DNA from: Crocinitomicaceae bacterium
GTDB taxonomy: Bacteria; Bacteroidota; Bacteroidia; Flavobacteriales_D; Crocinitomicaceae
Length of the DNA: 64,000 nucleotides
NCBI GenBank assembly: GCA_017984635.1
Contig: JAGNZC010000008.1
Coordinates: 1 to 64,000, forward strand
Reading direction: 5' to 3'
Shown here: positions 44,707 through 59,923 of the stretch, piece after piece
How positions within the stretch are numbered: the first letter of the stretch is position 1
Layout: each line of letters starts with the position of its first letter
Made by a program: the position numbers and the translations under genes
The notes under the pieces: model-generated
The model's input: only the letters and a program-made list of their open reading frames with translations
Told to the model about the DNA's origin: nothing
Databases searched by the model: none

Positions 44707-44739
44707 AAAAAAGTCCTAGCGTTTAACTAGGACTTTTTT
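44707..44739 (+). terminator. Bidirectional terminator between lpd and the nucleotidase operon
   Basis: A 13-bp stem (AAAAAAGTCCTAG with CTAGGACTTTTTT) surrounds a 7-base loop, flanked by A- and T-runs, so it can end both the lpd transcript and the convergent minus-strand operon. Confidence 0.88.
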
Positions 44740-44752
44740 TATGCTTATTCGT

Positions 44753-45667
44753 TTACACAACTTTTACATGTTTTTGTTTTGTGAAGATCGATCGTTCACT
44801 TGTGATTTCTACATCTATTCGTCCTAAATGAAGTCCACCCCAACCTACTTGATTAATCAAAACTGGATTCCCTTCTACATTCGTAACTTCAATTGGTTTT
44901 TCTAAGAATGTATGCGTATGGCCTCCTAAAATCAGATCTATATTCGAAGTGTTAGCTGCTAATATTTTATCAGAAACTTTATCCGTTTGGTATTCAAAAC
45001 CAAGGTGCGACAAACAAATCACGATTGAACAACCTGCTTGTTTTAATTTGGCAGCAACCTCATTGGCAACTTTTATTGGATCTTGATATCTCGTTTTTTC
45101 AAATTTTGATGCTGGAACTAATCCTTCTAATTCGATTCCAATACCAAAAACACCTATCGTATGATTGCCTTTTTTGAAGATTGAATATGGTTTTGTTTTA
45201 TCTTTTAAAACCGTCTGAGAAAAATCATAATTGGCACATAAAAAAGGAAATTTTGCATGTTCACTTGCCATGAAAAAACCTTCTAAACCTGTGTCAAAAT
45301 CGTGGTTACCCATTGTTGCGGCATCGTATCCTAATTCTGACATTAATTTCATCTCCAACGTTCCTTTGTACTTATTAAAATACGGTGTACCTTGGAATAC
45401 ATCTCCAGCATCTAACAATAACACATGTTCCTCTTGTTGGCGGATGGCTTTGATAACTTCAAATCGTTTTGAAATGCCTCCCATATTTGGGAATTTACTA
45501 TGATTCGCAGGTAAAGGTTCAATGTTAGAATGCGTATCATTTGTGTGTAAAATGGTGATTTTAGTTTTTTTCTTTTTAAAGAAAGTGGATTGAGAAAAGG
45601 CATTTCCTGTAAGGAATAAACCGCCTGTGACAATTGCACTTTTCTTTACAAATGATCTTCTTTTCAT
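44753..45667 (-). CDS. 5'-Nucleotidase-type metallophosphatase, catalytic half (Tat-type signal)
   Basis: The 304-residue protein is a calcineurin-like metallophosphatase of the UshA/5'-nucleotidase family without its C-terminal domain. The metal motifs are HTNDTHSNIEP near 41-51, LLDAGDVFQG near 83-92, GNHDFDTG near 119-126, LSHLGFEY near 223-230 and GGHTHTF near 254-260. The N-terminus KRRSFVKKSA has the twin-arginine pattern, so it should be exported folded and metal-loaded. The missing substrate-binding domain is encoded by the gene directly upstream. It is the last gene of the operon starting at 52253 and meets a strong terminator. Confidence 0.88.
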   Translation of the reverse strand: MKRRSFVKKSAIVTGGLFLTGNAFSQSTFFKKKKTKITILHTNDTHSNIEPLPANHSKFPNMGGISKRFEVIKAIRQQEEHVLLLDAGDVFQGTPYFNKYKGTLEMKLMSELGYDAATMGNHDFDTGLEGFFMASEHAKFPFLCANYDFSQTVLKDKTKPYSIFKKGNHTIGVFGIGIELEGLVPASKFEKTRYQDPIKVANEVAAKLKQAGCSIVICLSHLGFEYQTDKVSDKILAANTSNIDLILGGHTHTFLEKPIEVTNVEGNPVLINQVGWGGLHLGRIDVEITSERSIFTKQKHVKVV

Positions 45668-45710
45668 AAGTTTGAAATTAACTATTATTTATGAACTAAA
45701 GCTGATTAAT

Positions 45711-46415
45711 TTAAAATGTAACACGAATTGTCGTATCGATTTTTAATTCGCCTTGTTTTTTCACTTCTTCCAACAATGCATTTCGAAGCAATTTTGAAGT
45801 TGTATTGACAGCTATTTTTTGTGAGAAAAAACGCATATTATCACCACCATTCACCAAATAATCAGATGTAATCACCCAAAAGAATTGAGTTTGAGAATTT
45901 ACTCCTGCAAGTTGTAATTTACCATTTACAATTTGCGCATTAGAAATTGGTTCTCCTCCAGATTTGATTAAATAGGCTTCGATATCCTTAAGTGCAGCAA
46001 TCGGTAATTTCACCCAAACTAGTTCATTATCAAAGGGCATTACTTTAAATACGTCTCCAACTGTTATTGGGCCTTTGTTGAAACTGGAACGAATACCACC
46101 CACATTGAACAAACACATTACGGGCTCACTTAATCGTACATTTTCAGTTTGGTTGGTAAAAATGGCATCGGCAAACCAATTGTTCATTGTCCCATTTGGA
46201 CGTGCTGTAACAAAGTTAATTGAAGCCTTACCTATAATCAAATTCATTTCTTTTGCTAACGAATCTTTGTAAGGCTGAACTAGACTATCAATGTGTTGAT
46301 TCGTGATACATGATGAACCTATTTTCACTTGAGATGGATGAAAAAATACATGGGTAACAGAAGAGCAGGCCAAAAGACCTGCTCCTATGAAAATTAATAT
46401 AAATCGTTTAATCAT
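45711..46415 (-). CDS. 5'-Nucleotidase C-terminal (substrate-binding) domain lipoprotein
   Basis: The 234-residue protein has a lipoprotein signal ending in GLLAC (Cys17) and one 5'-nucleotidase C-terminal domain (Pfam 5_nucleotid_C). The family blocks are NWFADAIF near 89-96, FNVGGIRSSFNKGPITVGD near 117-135, VMPFDNELV near 139-147 and TSDYLVNGGDNM near 202-213. In UshA this domain binds the nucleoside and follows the catalytic domain in one chain; here the two are separate genes. Its ATG overlaps the endonuclease stop by one base (TAATG). The catalytic half begins 43 bases downstream. Confidence 0.87.
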   Translation of the reverse strand: MIKRFILIFIGAGLLACSSVTHVFFHPSQVKIGSSCITNQHIDSLVQPYKDSLAKEMNLIIGKASINFVTARPNGTMNNWFADAIFTNQTENVRLSEPVMCLFNVGGIRSSFNKGPITVGDVFKVMPFDNELVWVKLPIAALKDIEAYLIKSGGEPISNAQIVNGKLQLAGVNSQTQFFWVITSDYLVNGGDNMRFFSQKIAVNTTSKLLRNALLEEVKKQGELKIDTTIRVTF

Positions 46416-48556
46416 TATTCAATAACAATTGATTTTTGAGCAATACCATAAGGTGTTGTTGTTTTAACAATATATGTTCCAGCTTTGATTGCTGCAATAT
46501 TCACTTTCGTAAGAACTAAGTTTTTGACATCCGAAGCTAAAACTATACGACCTTGAACATCACTAATTTCATACGCAGAAATTGTTGTACCATCTACGTG
46601 CAAATTCAATTCATTTTTCGCAGGATTTGGATACACTACAAAATTAGATGTCAATAGTTCATCAATTGATGCTTGACAAGCCAACGCATCATATGTCATG
46701 TTTGAAAAATTTATGAAGCATACAAAATCAACACTATCCACAAAAGGATTTCTATTACCTTGTAATGAATCAATATAATCATTTCTAGAAATCTCATAAT
46801 TACTTGGTAAATCATTGAAGTGCCATTGTTTTAAAATCGCTTGATTTTGTGAAGCTGGTAATGACCAAGAATTGCCACTCACCGTTGTATAACAAACAGC
46901 CTCATACATCATTGCTCTAGCAGCATCTCCTTTGTGTTCGTCTCTTGGTTCAAAAACAGTGTTTCCATTTGCATCTTGTCCAAATTTTGAACCTAAATAT
47001 GTCTGAGTAACTGTTACAACCTTTCCTAACGGATAATTACTTCTAACTGCATTTACATCATCTTGATTCGTAGGGAATAAATGGTGGTAATCATTGTATT
47101 CTGGTAAAGCTTGAGCTGGATTTGTAGGCATCCAAGAATGGCAATACGTATGCTCTCTAGAATATCCTGTTGCTGTAAAATCAAAAGGTTCAGCATAAAT
47201 TTTATTTTCACCTGAATATACACATGTAATAACACGACGATTAAGCGTTGTATCTCTAGCTGCAAACCCTTTAATCATAAAATTTCCATAGTTACTATAG
47301 AATTGCATTGTGTGAGGATTCACTAAATTGTGTAAATCTGATAAAAACGAAGAGCTTGAAGTATTGATTCCTGCATATTCATTTGCAGGTTGCATTGTTG
47401 CGGGTGTTGTAACAGCTCCAAAAAGTGGATTTGAAGTTTTGTAATTAATGTTTGTACCAGCACCATTGTATGCAAAAATCAAAAAGTGGTATGCCGTAGA
47501 TGCAACTATATTATTAGGGACAAAAATTGTTGAATTTGATGCATAAACAACTTGTGCATCTCCAATTACATCACCTCTTTGATAAACTGTACCATCAACT
47601 GGTGAAGCTGTAATTGCAGACCCTTTCTTACGTAATACGATGTATCCACCAACGTTAGAAGCTGGAGTAAATGAGCCCATAATTCGGTACGTTTTATTCA
47701 TTGAAAAAGTCAAAGCAGTGGGTTGAGCAGTTGGTTCCGTTGCGAAATTCCCTCCAATACCATTTAAATTAATAACATATGAAGCTTCATCCGTATCGTT
47801 GTTTGCAATAGTTAATACTGCTAGTCTTGTTCCAGCAGCACTTGGTGTAAAATTCACTACTAAATTTCCTGTAGCATTTGCTGCAACTGAAGCTGGGAAA
47901 GTAGCAACAGAAAAATCAGAAGCATTTGCACCTGAAATGGTAGCACTCGATAGGGTTAATGCATTTGCTGTTCCAACGTTTTCAACTGTGAATGTAGTTG
48001 GTGTCATAGTTGCAACAGGAGAATTCATCGTAAATGTACCTCCATTCAAAACGGTTGTAGCTCCTTGTTTCACATTGATTTCTTGAGCTGGTGTTGCAGC
48101 TCCTACCGCAATTGATACATCGTCTAATCCAACATTTCCGGAAACTTTGGTCGTATAGATGAAACGAATAAATCGAGTTGCTGGTAAAGGAACATCTGTA
48201 AATTGAGTATACGTTCCAGTTGGTAAAGTCGTAAATGCATGTAAAGTTGTCCATGTTGTTCCAAACTCAGACTCCTCCACTGTAAACGTACCACCGTTAA
48301 AACTATTCCCTGTGATGTAATAGGTTAAATTTCCTGGATTACTTGCGAAATTAATTATCAAATTATCACCCGTAGAATCAAATTTTTTCGCAGGAGGTGT
48401 ATTACCTGATGCTGTATATAAAACAGATTCGTTTTCTGTCCAGCCAATTGGCAAAGTTGGTGTCGTAAAACTCCAGCTTGTAGGTAATACAGCTTGAGAA
48501 AAACCTGTGAAACTAATCAGTAAAACAAGTAGTGAAATGTAATTCATTCTTTTCAT
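46415..48556 (-). CDS. T9SS-secreted endonuclease I (EndA-type) multidomain nuclease
   Basis: The 713-residue protein has a signal peptide (1-20), a beta-sandwich (about 23-150), a choice-of-anchor-D Ig-like domain (about 155-262, AQEINVKQGATTVLNGGTF) and an Fn3-like stretch. A nuclease domain of the endonuclease I family follows (about 390-630). Nuclease motifs are SREHTYCHSW and YHHLFPTNQDDVNAVRSNYP, which supply the His general base and the Asn metal ligand seen in Vvn/EndA enzymes. The end (VVYPNPAKNELNLHV to KSIVIE) is a type A T9SS sorting domain. It probably cuts DNA or RNA outside the cell. It overlaps the next gene by one base and lies 17 bases after the TonB receptor. Confidence 0.9.
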   Translation of the reverse strand: MKRMNYISLLVLLISFTGFSQAVLPTSWSFTTPTLPIGWTENESVLYTASGNTPPAKKFDSTGDNLIINFASNPGNLTYYITGNSFNGGTFTVEESEFGTTWTTLHAFTTLPTGTYTQFTDVPLPATRFIRFIYTTKVSGNVGLDDVSIAVGAATPAQEINVKQGATTVLNGGTFTMNSPVATMTPTTFTVENVGTANALTLSSATISGANASDFSVATFPASVAANATGNLVVNFTPSAAGTRLAVLTIANNDTDEASYVINLNGIGGNFATEPTAQPTALTFSMNKTYRIMGSFTPASNVGGYIVLRKKGSAITASPVDGTVYQRGDVIGDAQVVYASNSTIFVPNNIVASTAYHFLIFAYNGAGTNINYKTSNPLFGAVTTPATMQPANEYAGINTSSSSFLSDLHNLVNPHTMQFYSNYGNFMIKGFAARDTTLNRRVITCVYSGENKIYAEPFDFTATGYSREHTYCHSWMPTNPAQALPEYNDYHHLFPTNQDDVNAVRSNYPLGKVVTVTQTYLGSKFGQDANGNTVFEPRDEHKGDAARAMMYEAVCYTTVSGNSWSLPASQNQAILKQWHFNDLPSNYEISRNDYIDSLQGNRNPFVDSVDFVCFINFSNMTYDALACQASIDELLTSNFVVYPNPAKNELNLHVDGTTISAYEISDVQGRIVLASDVKNLVLTKVNIAAIKAGTYIVKTTTPYGIAQKSIVIE

Positions 48557-48573
48557 TCTTTCTTTTTTTTTAT

Positions 48574-51309
48574 TTAAAAACCAAATTTTAATCCTAGGTT
48601 AAATCTTCTGCCCATACCAACAAAAACATTGGCTGTATTTGCATCAAATCCTGGGCCATTTTGAGCATCTGTCATGTATACTTCATCTAAAACATTCATT
48701 ACTCCTCCTGAAAGTGTAGCAAAATATTTTTTAAAGAATTTTATTTCATACCCAAAATTGAAATCTAACAATCCATAACTTGGCATCATCCAAGATTCAC
48801 GGTCTTTATTAGCACCAACTAATTCAACGGGGTCAAAGTTGGCATAATTTTTATCAAAATACGTATAACGCAATTTCACGTACAAATCTTTTTTAATTTC
48901 ATATCGCAAACTAGCTCCCAATTGAATTTGAGCAGCATCGCCAACATGCACATCTTTCGCACTGAAGTCAACTTGTGCAACAATGTTATTGTCTTGATCA
49001 ATAATTGTTACAATATTTCCAGAAGTTGTTCTCCAATCAGCGATTGAAGCCAACCCTTCAAAATCAATTTTTGGTGTGATTTTATAAATGAAATCCAACT
49101 CAATTCCTTTGTGTAAAGCATCCAAACCATTGATATTATAAGAATCTCCATCTAAAGTTGTATACGTAAATTGCGGTGGTTTATTTTTCCAAATGGTATA
49201 ATACACATTTACATTGGATGAGAATCGTTTACTTTTAAAACCATAACCTAATTCAATAGAGGAAACTTTTTGATTTTGAATTTCTAAAAATGCTCTATTA
49301 GCATTATCAAAAACAGTATTCATTTTTGGAGCTATGTTTAGGTATCCAACATTAAAAAATACATTGTGATTTTTATTAATGTTGTAATTTGCACCACCTT
49401 TTACTGTTGCACCTGTAAACCATTTTTCATCAGTAGTTGCGGCTCTTGCTTCAGCAGAATTAATGGTATATTTTGTTCCATTTAACAACATGGTATCACC
49501 ATATCCAACAGCTTGAGCAAAAACAACTCCATCAATGACTAAATCTTTTTTCTTGAAATAGTCGATTCGCTGATAACCTGTTGTATTGATTGAAGCGGTA
49601 ACAAATGTACTCCACTTGTCTTTTTTGTATTCAACTTGACCAAAAACGCCCCCCCATTTCACCGTTGCATCGTTGTAATATGCGATTTTATCACCCACTC
49701 TTTTCATTGAATTAGAAGTATTTCCTAAAGTTGGTGTTTGTTGATTTTCATTCGTGTTGTCAATAGCATAATCCCCACCCATCAAATCATAAACTGATTG
49801 GTAATGCGAACCTCTATAATAACGCGCATCAATTCCAAACATTGATGACCAATTTGAATTTATTTTGTAGTTTAATGTTGACAATATTCCATACCATTTA
49901 TGGTCATTGTTTGAAGCTCTTAAATAATTACTAGACACATGCTCTGTTGTACTATATAAACTTGAATAAGCGGTGGAATTATAATCATACACTTTTTGTA
50001 GTTTCAATAATCCATTTGTTGTATCGTAATCACTTAAGGAAGTTTTAAGCCCAGTTCCTCCTCCAGAACCTATTGACATATATAATACAGTCGTTAAATT
50101 AAATTTAGCCGAAGGATTATACGAATGAGTTAAATTGAATTGAGGTTTATGGAAAAAATTTACTTTTTCATTAAAAATTTCTCCGTTGATTAAACCGGAA
50201 TTTGAATTGTATCGAATACCTCTAGCTCCAATTGTTGGTGTTGTATATTTGGAATTACTCACTTGATACAATGAATCTAAGGCTTCTTGGTAATTTATAC
50301 CTGCTTTTTCAGCTAATCCTTTATCAATTACAGCAATTGGTAAACGAGTTGTTCGTTGCCCATGCGATTGAGGCGCACCATTCACACCCAAACTAAACAA
50401 ATGCTTTTTGTATTTTTTCTGAACCTTAATAAAGTAAGACCAAGCATCATCAAATGTAGCATCAGCATAACTTGTACCCCATTTTTTAGCTCCTGCTACA
50501 GTTACTCCCCAATTACCTTTCAATAAACCAGTATTGTAACTAATTGCAGTTTTATATAACCCATAATTATTAACTTCTTGCTTAAAAGTAGCGCCCATTT
50601 TAGCATCTATTCCTTTAGTAACAACATTCATTGTACCACCAACAGAAACAACAGAAAGTTTAGAAGCTCCCAAACCACGTTGCACTTGCATGTAACGCGT
50701 AATATCACTTAATCCATCCCAGTTACTCCAATAAACCTGTCCCTTTTCCATGTCATTTACTGGAACACCATCTACCAAAACAGCAATATTACGTTGGTCA
50801 AATCCACGAATAGAAACACGCGCATCGCCTGCTCCACCACCTTGTTCTGTCGCATAAGCACCTGGTGTAGAATTCAATATCATAGGCAAATCTCGTGTTC
50901 CTAAATCTTCTGTTATTTGTTTTGCAGACAATTTAGAAAAAGCAATCGGCGTTTCACGCGTTTTAGCAGCATCTGCTTTCACAATCACTTCATCGATACC
51001 TTTCACATACTTTGCTAGAGTTATATCATATTTAAGAGATGTGCTACCCACTTTAAGTTTAAACTCCAGTGTATCGTATCCAAAACTCGTAACTTTAATT
51101 GAATACGTTTGATTTGGATCAATTTGTAATTTATAATTTCCGTCAATATCAGACTTTACGATAATGGTATTATTTAGTACGATCCGTGCGTCAAAAATCT
51201 GTTCAGATTCTGTTTCAACATCAGAAACAGAGCCACTCAGCGTGATTTTGTTCTGATTAAACGCATAAAAAGAAACTAATAAACTAATAAACAATACTAT
51301 AATTCTCAT
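48574..51309 (-). CDS. TonB-dependent outer-membrane receptor
   Basis: The 911-residue protein has a signal peptide (1-18), a CarboxypepD_reg-like domain (about 22-105), a plug domain (about 118-235, with RETPIAFSKLSAKQI, VSIRGFDQRNIAVLVDGVP and VSVGGTMNVVTKG) and a C-terminal 22-strand barrel ending in NLGLKFGF with the terminal Phe. No SusD-like partner is adjacent, so this is not a classic polysaccharide utilisation locus. Its place in an operon with a secreted nuclease and a 5'-nucleotidase suggests uptake of nucleic-acid breakdown products or a phosphate/metal compound; this is inference. Confidence 0.9.
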   Translation of the reverse strand: MRIIVLFISLLVSFYAFNQNKITLSGSVSDVETESEQIFDARIVLNNTIIVKSDIDGNYKLQIDPNQTYSIKVTSFGYDTLEFKLKVGSTSLKYDITLAKYVKGIDEVIVKADAAKTRETPIAFSKLSAKQITEDLGTRDLPMILNSTPGAYATEQGGGAGDARVSIRGFDQRNIAVLVDGVPVNDMEKGQVYWSNWDGLSDITRYMQVQRGLGASKLSVVSVGGTMNVVTKGIDAKMGATFKQEVNNYGLYKTAISYNTGLLKGNWGVTVAGAKKWGTSYADATFDDAWSYFIKVQKKYKKHLFSLGVNGAPQSHGQRTTRLPIAVIDKGLAEKAGINYQEALDSLYQVSNSKYTTPTIGARGIRYNSNSGLINGEIFNEKVNFFHKPQFNLTHSYNPSAKFNLTTVLYMSIGSGGGTGLKTSLSDYDTTNGLLKLQKVYDYNSTAYSSLYSTTEHVSSNYLRASNNDHKWYGILSTLNYKINSNWSSMFGIDARYYRGSHYQSVYDLMGGDYAIDNTNENQQTPTLGNTSNSMKRVGDKIAYYNDATVKWGGVFGQVEYKKDKWSTFVTASINTTGYQRIDYFKKKDLVIDGVVFAQAVGYGDTMLLNGTKYTINSAEARAATTDEKWFTGATVKGGANYNINKNHNVFFNVGYLNIAPKMNTVFDNANRAFLEIQNQKVSSIELGYGFKSKRFSSNVNVYYTIWKNKPPQFTYTTLDGDSYNINGLDALHKGIELDFIYKITPKIDFEGLASIADWRTTSGNIVTIIDQDNNIVAQVDFSAKDVHVGDAAQIQLGASLRYEIKKDLYVKLRYTYFDKNYANFDPVELVGANKDRESWMMPSYGLLDFNFGYEIKFFKKYFATLSGGVMNVLDEVYMTDAQNGPGFDANTANVFVGMGRRFNLGLKFGF

Positions 51310-51341
51310 AAAAGATATTTACGTTAATGATTAATCTAATA

Positions 51342-52253
51342 TTATTCAATAATTAAATTCGATTGAGCCATTTCACTATTCACGAAATGAATACGAACTG
51401 TATACATCCCTTTTTCAAAAGCAGCTGTAACAATTTCACTTGAAAGAACAGATCCATTTTTAATTTCAGAAGCGATCACTTGTCCTAAAACATTCAAAAT
51501 TTCAATTTTCTCAATCCCGATTGAAGCAGAAACCACTATTTTTCCATTTTGTGATGGATTTGGGTAAACTACAAATGATACTTTAGATGCTAATTCATCG
51601 ATTCCTACAAAACAATCACAGGTATGTTGACCTAATTCCGTCCATGTATCTTTTGGTAAGGAATCCCACTCTGTTGTAACGATAAATGGATCTGGATTGA
51701 CAGACACACCCTTTTTAACGTTTGATTTACGAATCAATGTTTGATCTTTTGTCCACCAAGCACCTACAGAACCATCATAAGGAAAAGCATCGCTCCAAGA
51801 TTGAGCAGTAGCAATAGATGCGTCGCCTGCTTTACCCATTAAATCAATCATTACACCATTTTTAAACAAACCAATCGCATCGTTTCCATTCATGTATGTT
51901 GGAGCTGGATATGCACCATCTAATTGATCCGCTAATGCTTGTAAAGCAGGAGATGCAGCAGGAGAAGAACCTGTACCAGTTGTTTGACCATTTACAATAA
52001 CAAACGTTGAATAAGGAGCGATTGAACCTGTCAAGTTTAAAACACCACCTGCTGTAGTTGTAGAATTTCCATTTGAATAACGTTCAACTGTATAACCTGA
52101 CAAATTAATGGTTGCTCCTGTTGGATTATAAATCTCAATTGCTTTATCATTTCCTGTTCCTTCCACATATTCAGAAATGAATAATTCAGAACAATCTTGT
52201 GCATACGTAGCACCAAAAACTAAAAAACTAAAATAAAGTAACGTTTTTTTCAT
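51342..52253 (-). CDS. Lamin-tail-domain protein with T9SS sorting domain
   Basis: The 303-residue protein has a signal peptide (MKKTLLYFSFLVFGATYAQ) and a lamin tail domain (LTD, about 20-215) opening with CSELFISEYVEGTGNDKAIEI (in shorter pieces) and including GATINLSGYTVERYSNG. Its type A T9SS sorting domain starts at VVYPNPSQNGKIVV. LTD domains occur in secreted nucleases such as Shewanella ExeM and Vibrio Xds, but no nuclease domain is present here. It is the first gene of the operon, 32 bases before the TonB receptor, and is likely secreted or surface-bound. Confidence 0.88.
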   Translation of the reverse strand: MKKTLLYFSFLVFGATYAQDCSELFISEYVEGTGNDKAIEIYNPTGATINLSGYTVERYSNGNSTTTAGGVLNLTGSIAPYSTFVIVNGQTTGTGSSPAASPALQALADQLDGAYPAPTYMNGNDAIGLFKNGVMIDLMGKAGDASIATAQSWSDAFPYDGSVGAWWTKDQTLIRKSNVKKGVSVNPDPFIVTTEWDSLPKDTWTELGQHTCDCFVGIDELASKVSFVVYPNPSQNGKIVVSASIGIEKIEILNVLGQVIASEIKNGSVLSSEIVTAAFEKGMYTVRIHFVNSEMAQSNLIIE

Positions 52254-52673
52254 AACATATTGATTTTAAAAATTAAAAAATACTGTTGATTTTGAAATGA
52301 AATACACAAAAAAGTAGCGGTATACTAATATAAATAGGTAAATTATTAAGAAAAATCTTACCCCAACTAGTAATACTTTGTGACATTATTTTTTCATCTC
52401 GCCGTGTTTATTTGTCTATGGTTTCAGACTATTACAAAAATAGCTTCAAGGAGAACATAGAAAAACTTGAAGCAAATGTAATTAATTATTTATTGAGTGG
52501 CATTATTTAATTGTTAACATTCGATCAATCATTTTTACACATTTTTGTTAATACTTTTTAAGATTGTATTACTTTTAAGGCTCAATTTTGGATTCAATAA
52601 ATTGAAAAAAGTACAATTTGTCTCTTATTTTTTTTATTGAACAAACGTTTAATAGCAACTTCAAACAAAGTAT
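52254..52673. other. Intergenic gap between the nucleotidase operon and DPP-IV gene
   Basis: The 420-base divergent gap is AT-rich. It holds a minus-strand TATTTTTG (52435-52442) that fits TAnnTTTG but is 181 bases from the LTD start, and a hairpin GCTTCAAG/CTTGAAGC (52443-52473). A plus-strand 30-codon reading frame (52418-52510) is too short to trust. No promoter close to either start was seen. Confidence 0.4.
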
Positions 52674-56367: not shown

Positions 56368-57582
56368 TTAATCTTCTTGATCTTGTTCAATAGAATCTGA
56401 ATCTTTCGTTAATTTATGTAGTCTTTTAGTTCCATCATAAATTGAAAATTTTCGGAAACTACATTCCAATTCACCATTGTATAATTTAATTTTTCGATCT
56501 GGACGTAAACCAATTGACTTAAAACCAGGCTCAGAAGCTGAAATAATCCAACAATCAAATCCTTTCATTTCATTTTTCATCCAATTCCCTAATCCTTCAT
56601 ACAGTTCTTCGATATTGTCTCCCATTCTTTCCCCATAAGGAGGATTTGAAAGCACGACACCCTTTTCATCAGGACATTTTACTTCTTCAAAAGAATGAAC
56701 GGCTGTCTCAACAAAACGACCAATTGGCAATGCTCTAAGGTTACGTCTTGTTTTCGTTACCATCTCATCACTGCTATCCGAACCAATAATACGGCAAGGC
56801 AAAGCAGTAACTCTTTTTTTAACTGCATTCTCATAAATTTCTTCCCACATAGCATCGTCGTAATTCGCAAAATTCTTAAATGCATAATGCTGACGTTCCA
56901 TATTAGAAGGTATTCCAACAGCCAACATTGCGGCTTCAATTAACAAGGTTCCAGAACCACAAAACGGGTCAATAAATGTCGATTTTCTGTCCCATCCCGA
57001 CAAGCGAATTAATCCTGCAGCAACTACTTCGTTTAAAGGTGCTTCACCAGCTGATTGACGGTAACCTCTTTGAAACAAAGGTAAACCACTTGTATTCAAA
57101 GAAATTGTTACTGTTGAATTATTGATGTATAAATCAATGACAACTTGTGGAGATTTGGTATTGATATCTGGTCGATTTCCATCTAGATTTCTGAACGTAT
57201 CAACAATAGCATCTTTCACCAATAAAAAAGGAAATTGAGAATGTTTAAAGAAATCTGAAAAAATTGCTCCTTTCACAACAAATGTTTTGTCAACTGAAAA
57301 ATAGTTTGGCCATTTAATATCCATACATTTTTTATACAATTCATCTTCATGACGAATTGTAAATTGTTTCAATTCAACTAAAATTGAAATCGCACATCTA
57401 ACATGTAAATTCAAGAAGTAAACATCACGCCAAGAACCTTTAACTTGAACAGCACGATTTAATACAAGTACTTCTTCGAATCCTAATTCGTTCAACTCTT
57501 CCGATAATACTTGCTCCAAACCATAAAATGTTTTGAGTGTAATCGTCATTAACTGTTCTTTACTTTTTAATTCTTCTTTCAT
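56368..57582 (-). CDS. THUMP-domain class I SAM-dependent RNA methyltransferase (RlmL/Trm14-like)
   Basis: The protein (404 residues from the ATG at 57582) has an N-terminal THUMP domain (about 50-165, RNA binding) and a UPF0020/RlmL-type methyltransferase domain. DPFCGSGTLLIEAA near 204-217 is the SAM motif, followed by SNPPYGERMG near 289-298, the NPPY base-methylation motif. It probably makes m2G in 23S rRNA or tRNA. The start is uncertain: an ATG at 57624 is also in frame but would overlap the promoter of the divergent patatin gene, and an ATG at 57549 would be shorter. It shares the terminator with gltA. Confidence 0.85.
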   Translation of the reverse strand: MKEELKSKEQLMTITLKTFYGLEQVLSEELNELGFEEVLVLNRAVQVKGSWRDVYFLNLHVRCAISILVELKQFTIRHEDELYKKCMDIKWPNYFSVDKTFVVKGAIFSDFFKHSQFPFLLVKDAIVDTFRNLDGNRPDINTKSPQVVIDLYINNSTVTISLNTSGLPLFQRGYRQSAGEAPLNEVVAAGLIRLSGWDRKSTFIDPFCGSGTLLIEAAMLAVGIPSNMERQHYAFKNFANYDDAMWEEIYENAVKKRVTALPCRIIGSDSSDEMVTKTRRNLRALPIGRFVETAVHSFEEVKCPDEKGVVLSNPPYGERMGDNIEELYEGLGNWMKNEMKGFDCWIISASEPGFKSIGLRPDRKIKLYNGELECSFRKFSIYDGTKRLHKLTKDSDSIEQDQED

Positions 57583-57611
57583 TTTTTTATCCTTCACGTG
57601 TGAAATACTCT

Positions 57612-57619
57612 TATTTTTG
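57612..57619 (+). promoter_or_regulatory. -7 box of the patatin-barrel gene
   Basis: TATTTTTG matches TAnnTTTG and ends 15 bases before the TTG start at 57635. Confidence 0.55.
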
Positions 57620-57634
57620 TACAAAAGAACGAAT

Positions 57635-59923
57635 TTGAAATCAATTATTCAGTATATTCTTTTAATCTATTGCTTTTGCAGTACAATTTCTTTTGGTCAA
57701 CAAAAGATTGGAATTGTTTTAAGTGGTGGTGGTGCGGCTGGTTTAGCCCACATCGGCGTATTGAAAGCTTTGGAAGAAAAAGGAATTCCTATCGATTACA
57801 TTACTGGTACTTCTGCTGGTGCGTTAACAGGCGCGATGTATGCTTCTGGTTATAGTCCAAAAGAAATTGAAGCATATGTACTAAGCAATGAATTTCAATT
57901 AATGACAAAAGGGAAATTAAAAGAAAATCAACGATTTTATTACAAAGAAGAAGATCAAAACGCAAGTTTGATTGACTTATCATTTAATATTGATACGAAT
58001 CTATTAAAATCATTACCTACAAATGTAATCCGATCATCATATTTAGATTTTGAAATGATGCGTATTTTTTCAGCAACTAGTGCATCTTGTAAAAATGATT
58101 TCAACCAACTTTTTGTACCTTTTAGATGCATAGCTTCAGATATTAGTGCTAAAAAAAGCATTGTGTTATCTAATGGCAATTTAAATGAAGCTGTTCGTGC
58201 GTCTATGACATATCCTTTTTATTTTTCACCAATAAGCATAGATGGCAAATTATTGTTTGATGGTGGCCTTTACAATAATTTTCCAGCACTTGAAATTTGC
58301 AATGAATTCAAACCAGATTTTGTAATTGGCAGTAATGTTTCTAGTAATGCTTCTGCTCCTTCTGAAAACGATTTACTAAGTCAAGTTACGAATATGTTGG
58401 TTTACAATTCTAATTATTCTATACCGTGTGATTCAAACATTCTAATTGAACCAAAAATCGAGATTGGAACATTCGAATTTGAAAAGGTAAAATTGGCAAT
58501 CAAAGCGGGTTACGACGCCACAATTGCCTTGATGGACTCGATAAGTTTGAAAATTACTAGACGAATCAGTTTAGAAGAATTGACTGCAAAAAGAACTGTC
58601 TTCAAAGCACGGATTAATACGTTAAAAATCACTTCAATTACCAACAATTTTGATCGAAAAAAAGATTTAAGTTATGCTCGAAAATCTATGATTCGTCAAC
58701 TAAAAAATGAAAAAATTGATTTATTAAAACTTGAGAAACGTTATTTTAGGTTGGATGCAACACCACAAATTGATTTCACTTATCCAACATTAACATTAAA
58801 ACCAGATAGCACCTACAATCTAAATTTAAACATTCGCAAAGCAAAAGATTTCAAACTCGAAATAGGTGGACATTTTTCTTCCAGAGCAGTCAATACTGGC
58901 TACATCGGTTTAACCTACAAAAATTTAGGAAAGACAGCTTATTCCGCTCACGGAGAAGCCTATTTTGGGAAATTCTATGGCTCTTTGAAAACCAATTTCA
59001 ATATTGAAATTCCATCTACAATTCCTGTTTCTGCTTCCGCGTATTTCGTTTTAAATCGTTGGGACTATTTCAATAATTTCGCAACCTTTTTCGAAGAAGT
59101 TAAACCTTCATTTTTAATACAAAATGAAATGTATTATGGTGTTAGCTTTAAAAACCCAATTACTAATTCTACTAAAAGCACATTGAACTTTAAAATTTTT
59201 AACCTGGAAGATGATTATTACCAAAATCAAAACTTCACAAACAAAGACACTTCTGATATTACCTATTTTGATGGTCAATCAGTATCATGGGAATTCACCA
59301 GTAATACATTAAATAAAAAACAATTTGCCAATAGAGGACATTATTTTCATTTTAAAATAAACTACATAAATGGAGCTGAAAAAACAATCCTTGGTTCACT
59401 ATCTAATTCAAATACAGAAATTAGAAAAAACCATAATTGGTTGAGTCTAGAATCAGAAATTCAAAAATTCATCTTAAATCTTAACCATTTTCACCTTGGG
59501 ATTCATGCAGCTGGAGCTTTCAATACACATTATTTATTTTCAAATTATACTGCAACGTTATTAACCTTGCCAAATTTTGCTTTATTACCTGATGCCCAAA
59601 CTTTTTTCTTGAAAGAGTTTAGGTCACCACAATACGTTGGAGCAGGATTAAACATGGTGTATTCAATAAAACGAAACATTGATTTTCGTATAGATGCATA
59701 TATTTTCCAACCTTTAATCATGTTAAGCGAAAAGAATGATGGTGTTCCTTATTTAGGAAAAGTAGACAATATTACTTCATTTATGGGTGACGCAACGTTA
59801 ATTTATCACTCTCCAATAGGTCCTGTTCGACTTACGCTCAACTATTTTGAAAAACAATCCAATCCATTTTACTTTCAACTAAGTTATGGGTACGTCATCT
59901 TTAATAAAAAAGCAATACGATGA
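57635..59923 (+). CDS. Patatin-like phospholipase with outer-membrane beta-barrel (PlpD-like), TTG start
   Basis: I start the gene at the TTG at 57635 because it follows a promoter box by 15 bases and gives a clean signal peptide (KSIIQYILLIYCFCSTISFG); no ATG exists between it and the conserved core. The 762-residue protein has a patatin domain (about 24-230) with the oxyanion loop GGGAAG at 31-36, the nucleophile Ser60 in GTSAG and Asp209 in DGGLYNN. A long C-terminal region (about 350-762) is rich in alternating strands and resembles a BamA/Omp85-type barrel. Such proteins place a phospholipase A domain at or through the outer membrane. Its stop overlaps the VOC gene start as ATGA. Confidence 0.85.
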   Translation: MKSIIQYILLIYCFCSTISFGQQKIGIVLSGGGAAGLAHIGVLKALEEKGIPIDYITGTSAGALTGAMYASGYSPKEIEAYVLSNEFQLMTKGKLKENQRFYYKEEDQNASLIDLSFNIDTNLLKSLPTNVIRSSYLDFEMMRIFSATSASCKNDFNQLFVPFRCIASDISAKKSIVLSNGNLNEAVRASMTYPFYFSPISIDGKLLFDGGLYNNFPALEICNEFKPDFVIGSNVSSNASAPSENDLLSQVTNMLVYNSNYSIPCDSNILIEPKIEIGTFEFEKVKLAIKAGYDATIALMDSISLKITRRISLEELTAKRTVFKARINTLKITSITNNFDRKKDLSYARKSMIRQLKNEKIDLLKLEKRYFRLDATPQIDFTYPTLTLKPDSTYNLNLNIRKAKDFKLEIGGHFSSRAVNTGYIGLTYKNLGKTAYSAHGEAYFGKFYGSLKTNFNIEIPSTIPVSASAYFVLNRWDYFNNFATFFEEVKPSFLIQNEMYYGVSFKNPITNSTKSTLNFKIFNLEDDYYQNQNFTNKDTSDITYFDGQSVSWEFTSNTLNKKQFANRGHYFHFKINYINGAEKTILGSLSNSNTEIRKNHNWLSLESEIQKFILNLNHFHLGIHAAGAFNTHYLFSNYTATLLTLPNFALLPDAQTFFLKEFRSPQYVGAGLNMVYSIKRNIDFRIDAYIFQPLIMLSEKNDGVPYLGKVDNITSFMGDATLIYHSPIGPVRLTLNYFEKQSNPFYFQLSYGYVIFNKKAIR

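Follow-up and report, generated by a model that had tools for sequence, protein, structure and literature searches.

A putative nucleic-acid acquisition operon of Crocinitomicaceae with a lamin-tail type IX cargo protein, a TonB-dependent receptor and a candidate leader RNA

Much of the recycling of environmental DNA is attributed to Bacteroidota. Use of DNA by Lutibacter and other Bacteroidota has been shown by isotope labelling, and these bacteria combine extracellular nucleases with periplasmic 5'-nucleotidases; lamin-tail domains (LTDs) appear in the nuclease-associated figure of that study, whose text makes no mention of TonB receptors (Wasmund et al., 2021; PMC8289736). In Flavobacterium johnsoniae, the LTD plus Endonuclease_1 proteins EndA1 and EndA2 (Fjoh_4721 and Fjoh_4723) belong to the exoproteome and are induced by phosphate depletion, each uniting both domains in one protein encoded at an orphan locus (PMC8115612). 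Our searches of the open-access literature found no paper combining a lamin tail domain with a TonB-dependent receptor or describing an LTD-receptor-nuclease operon, and no description of how pieces of DNA cross the Bacteroidota outer membrane.

The operon described here comes from a freshwater Bacteroidota bacterium of a Crocinitomicaceae-like family (Flavobacteriales), and lies in a window of 64,000 nucleotides, the whole stretch of DNA that was analysed. It shares secreted LTD and Endonuclease_1 domains with the F. johnsoniae proteins, and nucleases and 5'-nucleotidases with the organisms of the labelling study. Unlike in F. johnsoniae, the LTD and endonuclease I (EndoI) each have a gene of their own; a TonB receptor gene stands between these two, and a pair of nucleotidase genes follows.

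Gene content of the operon

Five minus-strand genes occupy positions 52253–44753 with gaps of 32, 17, −1, and 43 nt and encode, in the 5' to 3' direction of the operon, an LTD protein, a TonB receptor, an EndoI protein, and the C and N halves of a 5'-nucleotidase. The genes, coordinates, strands and spacings given in a first-pass annotation of this DNA proved exact on re-checking, and domain searches agreed with its identification of all five products. The terminator with which it had closed the operon is likewise a real hairpin (44707–44739), but a symmetric one with T runs on both strands; because it also lies between the operon and the convergent lpd gene, it is probably a shared terminator that ends lpd too. 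Just beyond the operon region, positions 57533–59923 encode a 796-aa patatin-like phospholipase.

The LTD protein (51342–52253, minus strand; 303 aa) contains an LTD (PF00932, 2.7e-18) and a Por_Secre_tail sorting domain (PF18962), and residues 21–218 match the start of the ExeM nuclease model (8.9e-24). The earlier analogy with LTD-bearing secreted nucleases therefore stands for the N-terminal region but does not extend to catalysis: against the full ExeM model the protein scores 83.6, compared with a cut-off of 1300, and the domain search of the chain returned only the LTD and the sorting domain, with no catalytic nuclease domain. Its predicted structure (pLDDT 90.7) has the lamin Ig fold and T9SS C-terminal domain structures among its matches; searched as single sequences against solved structures, neither this protein nor the receptor gave a match. 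PF18962 is present on both the LTD and EndoI proteins, and together with signal peptides judged by eye identifies them as type A cargo of the type IX secretion system (T9SS). Further LTD proteins occur elsewhere in the same genome (G000:C88:30673-34152, G000:C71:6396, and G000:C18:12944), one of them a 1338-aa open frame with three LTD matches.

The receptor (48574–51309, minus strand; 911 aa) carries Plug (PF07715) and CarbopepD_reg_2 (PF13715) domains. Domain searches found no SusD family member among the operon genes, in line with the earlier description of a receptor without SusD. By profile comparison, the first 180 positions of the receptor align with a SusC homologue. The predicted structure (pLDDT 85.6) resembles classical, small-ligand TonB receptors; its best folds are PqqU, Fiu, YncD, and FhuA, and the closest solved folds, all remote relatives, transport iron complexes, copper, or PQQ. 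In Bacteroidales-like genomes (L091, L087, L088, L086, and L096), more distant receptor relatives (33–37% identity) lack an LTD gene; behind the receptor comes a lipoprotein that has repeated Y-NF/DYLP motifs but matches nothing in Pfam, and L091 additionally has a nucleotide pyrophosphatase-type phosphodiesterase there. A 39% relative in a Chryseobacterium gleum record (L085:9001-13367) has polyphosphate kinase directly behind it.

The EndoI protein (46415–48556, minus strand; 713 aa) combines an Endonuclease_1 domain at residues 407–608 (PF04231, 1.6e-29; 103.7 bits against a cut-off of 25) with choice-of-anchor D and Por_Secre_tail domains, and matches Vvn-type nucleases. Since the active site is conserved (R467, E468, H469, N502, and E536, each in at least 93% of 76 sequences), the protein is predicted to cut extracellular DNA or RNA.

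The last two genes divide between them what UshA and CD73 hold in one chain, with the C half first, an arrangement kept in 32 relatives. The C-terminal, substrate-binding half (45711–46415, minus strand; 234 aa) is a lipoprotein with a lipobox at C17 and a 5_nucleotid_C domain (PF02872, 8.4e-16; 58.9 bits against 23.6); C17 and the GG-R and PFDN motifs are conserved in relatives, and it aligns to the C halves of 2z1a and 3ivd. The catalytic half (44753–45667, minus strand; 304 aa) has a Metallophos domain (PF00149, 3.1e-18), aligns to the N halves of CD73 (7e-36), UshA, and NadN, and retains in relatives the metal-ligand motifs NDTH, DAGD, GNHD, SHLG, and GGHTHT. Its signal had been called Tat-type, a description supported by the RR pair and by conservation of R3, R4, and F6, but weakened by a Tat model score (13.2 bits) just below the cut-off of 16.7. 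The two halves would together assemble into an UshA/CD73-type 5'-nucleotidase.

Conservation of the locus and joint exchange of two genes

Of the 120 genomes in the family sample, 72 carry the receptor, and neighbourhoods were compared for 40 of them, several of the incomplete ones ending at contig edges. All 32 relatives that hold the five genes keep the full order, in two cases (L032 and L039) despite different flanking genes; in L046 the nucleotidase pair is missing beside the rest of the locus. Among 296 genomes from 165 genera of the class Bacteroidia, 75 genomes and 38 genera had the receptor (E up to 1e-90). In 60 neighbourhoods from other families, the LTD gene lay directly upstream of the receptor on the same strand in 55 (median gap 55 nt; one of the five loci lacking an LTD call is at a contig edge), and a T9SS nuclease gene lay nearby in 48; the other 12 had no nuclease call within reach. 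Gaps along this LTD-receptor-nuclease series are usually below 100 nt. Linkage of the nucleotidase pair to the locus is confined to the window's family and to family f59 (L151 and L153), where the pair is divergently oriented.

Judged by these neighbourhoods, gene order is conserved far beyond chance, being retained in 32 family relatives with its core found throughout the class; that core consists of LTD, receptor, and nuclease, to which the own family and f59 add the nucleotidase pair. The first-pass annotation had proposed that five such genes scavenge extracellular DNA and nucleotides and had suggested a neighbourhood search to check it. The search supports a conserved locus for nucleic-acid acquisition, but places the nucleotidase pair outside what is shared across the class.

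The identity of the nuclease is the variable part of the core. EndoI accounts for 41 of the 48 nucleases and a PLD-type enzyme for seven; the latter has an unrelated fold and carries a sorting domain. In L081, too, the same LTD-receptor pair stands behind a PLD-type protein. The nuclease type switched at least five times along the receptor tree, an indication that nucleic acid is the substrate. At eight loci from families f5, f28, and f29 (L124:10778-11230; also L121, L126, L127, L130, L139, L140, and L144) a small protein of ~150 aa, a lipoprotein by eye and weakly lipocalin-like in L124, is encoded between the receptor and EndoI genes.

Comparison of pairwise distances among family members gave a correlation of 0.93 between LTD protein and receptor, unchanged at 0.93 with citrate synthase removed, compared with 0.63–0.65 for either against the nuclease, 0.43–0.47 against the nucleotidase halves, and 0.18–0.19 against citrate synthase; pairwise distances are non-independent, so no simple p-value attaches to these values. 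The LTD and nuclease genes are equally near the receptor gene, so adjacency alone does not explain the LTD-receptor value. Two LTD-receptor types occur in the family, about 65–92% and about 40% identical to those of the window, and trees place the window's type together with those of other families; a single family clade was rejected for both the receptor (p-AU 7.6e-7) and the LTD protein (p-AU 9e-4). Some genomes (L033, L038, and L042) have LTD and receptor of the second type but a nuclease of the type seen in the window. From these mixed genomes and the rejected clade it follows that the LTD and receptor genes were exchanged jointly at the existing site, with the nucleotidase genes left as they were, a pattern that would be expected of a surface protein physically paired with its receptor. 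With no nuclease domain of its own and an evolution coupled to that of the receptor, the LTD protein is probably the receptor's surface partner rather than a nuclease.

Promoter elements and a probable leader RNA

Upstream of the operon are two elements that did not figure in the first-pass annotation, a promoter box and a structured RNA leader. The leader (52404–52472, minus strand) consists of a stem P1 (52456–52466 with 52410–52420), a small P2, and the loop motifs CCUUGA and UGAAACC, which are invariant or nearly so. It is 61–81 nt long in the family and begins where a −7 promoter element of the form TAnnTTTG ends (TACATTTG; 52473–52480, minus strand), so that the transcript start is expected within a few bases of the first stem. 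Aligned relatives also have this element, its end falling between −3 and +1 relative to the leader in 33 of the 34 operon copies; it fits the flavobacterial sigma A consensus (PMC9723704), and aligned upstream regions of the window's branch showed no −33 TTG element of the Bacteroidota kind. In its own family, the operon transcript thus probably begins with a folded RNA of ~60 nt.

The window's copy matches the covariance model at 73.8 bits; folded as a single sequence it gives a different minimum-free-energy structure, and the centroid shows P1 and P2. Rfam 15 contains no family that matches the leader at its gathering threshold, and relaxing the search up to E 10 gave only chance-level matches. 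The 11 pairs of P1 are formed in 92% of alignment cells, and 10 of the 11 show changes on both sides, in an analysis of two alignments of which the larger was fitted to the model and the first was not. Inverted arms would form in DNA as well, and the element abuts the promoter, as a DNA dyad serving as operator or inversion site might; this we consider very improbable, given that an operator would keep its arms conserved, whereas here the arms vary freely but complementarily (232 double changes, compared with 68 in shuffles, the signal being lost when partners were slid by one column), the conserved letters are those of the loops, and the inferred promoter element precedes nearly every copy. 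The structure of the leader RNA is thus supported by covariation, and the RNA may set the expression of its genes. It may do so as a metabolite sensor or a protein-binding site, or may make the message more stable.

The covariance model found the leader in 77 of 120 family genomes, mostly in one to three copies; beyond the family, weak matches occurred in f74 and f79 of the order sample, and none of the class-level LTD-receptor loci searched had it. A second site usually lies 13–18 nt before the start codon of a secreted-protein gene, and at 41 of 53 non-operon sites the gene behind encodes a T9SS sorting domain, which makes the leader a mark of T9SS cargo genes. Proteins at the second site often begin QLIINEVSQG and carry SprB or CHU_C domains. 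We considered whether these proteins (QLIINEVSQG..EYVEFVV) represent another LTD and rejected the idea, as they have no Pfam LTD match and an hhalign probability of 1.4%. They form a secreted family (L195:7010-8854 and homologues, starting QLIINEVSQG..EYVEFVVIG, with SprB and CHU_C domains and usually directly behind the leader) whose N-terminal domain has no Pfam name. In L200 and L203, two large tandem PKD/CHU_C genes have a leader copy each.

That the leader is common to SprB/CHU_C-type surface proteins, which look more adhesin-like than feeding-like, would suit an operon in which the nuclease and LTD protein serve to remove or restructure extracellular DNA of a biofilm matrix, a host, or prey, while the receptor carries something else and the genes are grouped by the surface they share. 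The iron complexes, copper, and PQQ carried by the receptor's nearest folds would agree. We nevertheless judge this unlikely: the receptor is the one member that stays fixed with the LTD protein across the class while the nuclease type changes, and the periplasmic nucleotidase pair, linked again in f59, best fits nucleotides entering the periplasm.

The second upstream element, a candidate activator site (GTTAACAATTAAATAAT; 52502–52518, minus strand), contains GTTAAYAA (box GTTAAYAATT). Of 34 operon promoters, 24 have this sequence at −46 to −49 relative to the leader, where 0.67 would be expected; among 53 other leader sites only 4 have it. Its position suits activator binding, and a Pho regulator could be the activator, the locus then being a phosphate-starvation system that attacks nucleic acid for phosphate only. 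The rise of F. johnsoniae EndA1 and EndA2 (LTD, fn3, and EndoI domains) under phosphate depletion (PMC8115612) and the polyphosphate kinase adjoining the related Chryseobacterium receptor speak for such control. In each matching genome, however, the box with TAnnTTTG at 18–26 nt spacing occurs once, at this operon, unlike a Pho regulon, and the window's genome has no other strict match, with the qualification that the strict pattern would miss variants. By its leader, moreover, the operon is connected with surface proteins rather than with phosphate genes, and PhoU, a sign of the standard Pho system, was not found in the 94%-complete genome, which leaves phosphate control unsupported by the genome. 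We regard this reading as possible but rather doubtful.

Proposed mechanism and comparison with known systems

We consider it reasonably likely that the five genes form a nucleic-acid acquisition operon, for scavenging of DNA or RNA as their content suggests. Given their sorting domains, the LTD protein and nuclease would be exported by the type IX system, and the nuclease would cut extracellular DNA or RNA. At the surface, the LTD protein would present oligonucleotides to the adjacent TonB receptor, as SusD does for SusC, a role suggested by their co-evolution and joint exchange. The receptor would import the pieces into the periplasm, where the two-gene 5'-nucleotidase (lipoprotein half plus RR-signal half) would release phosphate and nucleosides; no enzyme of the periplasm that turns oligonucleotides into mononucleotides was identified here. 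Nucleosides would then enter through a NupG-type symporter encoded elsewhere in the genome (Nuc_H_symport, 443 bits); NupC was also considered for the inner-membrane step and rejected, as it was not found. The genome also encodes ComEC, and DNA could thus separately be taken up by transformation. The folded RNA at the transcript start, common to other T9SS cargo genes, may set the expression of both.

With its receptor in a quarter of the class sample, the LTD-receptor-nuclease core would supply DNA uptake with a specific receptor and surface partner. If real, the leader would represent a novel regulatory RNA associated with T9SS cargo and an extra layer of control; we found no description in the literature of regulatory-RNA control over such cargo. 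The joint proposal, of a class-wide nucleic-acid utilisation locus in which a T9SS lamin-tail protein replaces SusD, together with a new metabolite- or protein-sensing Crocinitomicaceae leader RNA that co-regulates T9SS cargo, is tentative, and more apt to fail in some part than to hold as a whole.

The leader resembles Rfam cis-regulatory RNAs, among them many riboswitches and leaders, in its short length, its 5' location, and its combination of stems that vary with internal loops that are conserved, and differs from the known families in matching none of them. The LTD protein shares an N-terminal LTD with the extracellular nucleases ExeM of Shewanella and Xds of Vibrio; unlike ExeM, it has a T9SS sorting domain in place of the catalytic domain, catalysis being left to separate EndoI or PLD proteins. 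As a whole, the operon is most readily compared with SusCD-type PULs, including the phosphate version PusCD (PMC8115612), which likewise place a surface-exposed partner, a TonB receptor, and a secreted depolymerase in one operon with enzymes that finish the degradation in the periplasm. It is set apart from SusCD loci by the absence of SusD, by a receptor whose model is nearest to classical TonB receptors, and by a putative partner that is a lamin-tail T9SS cargo protein.
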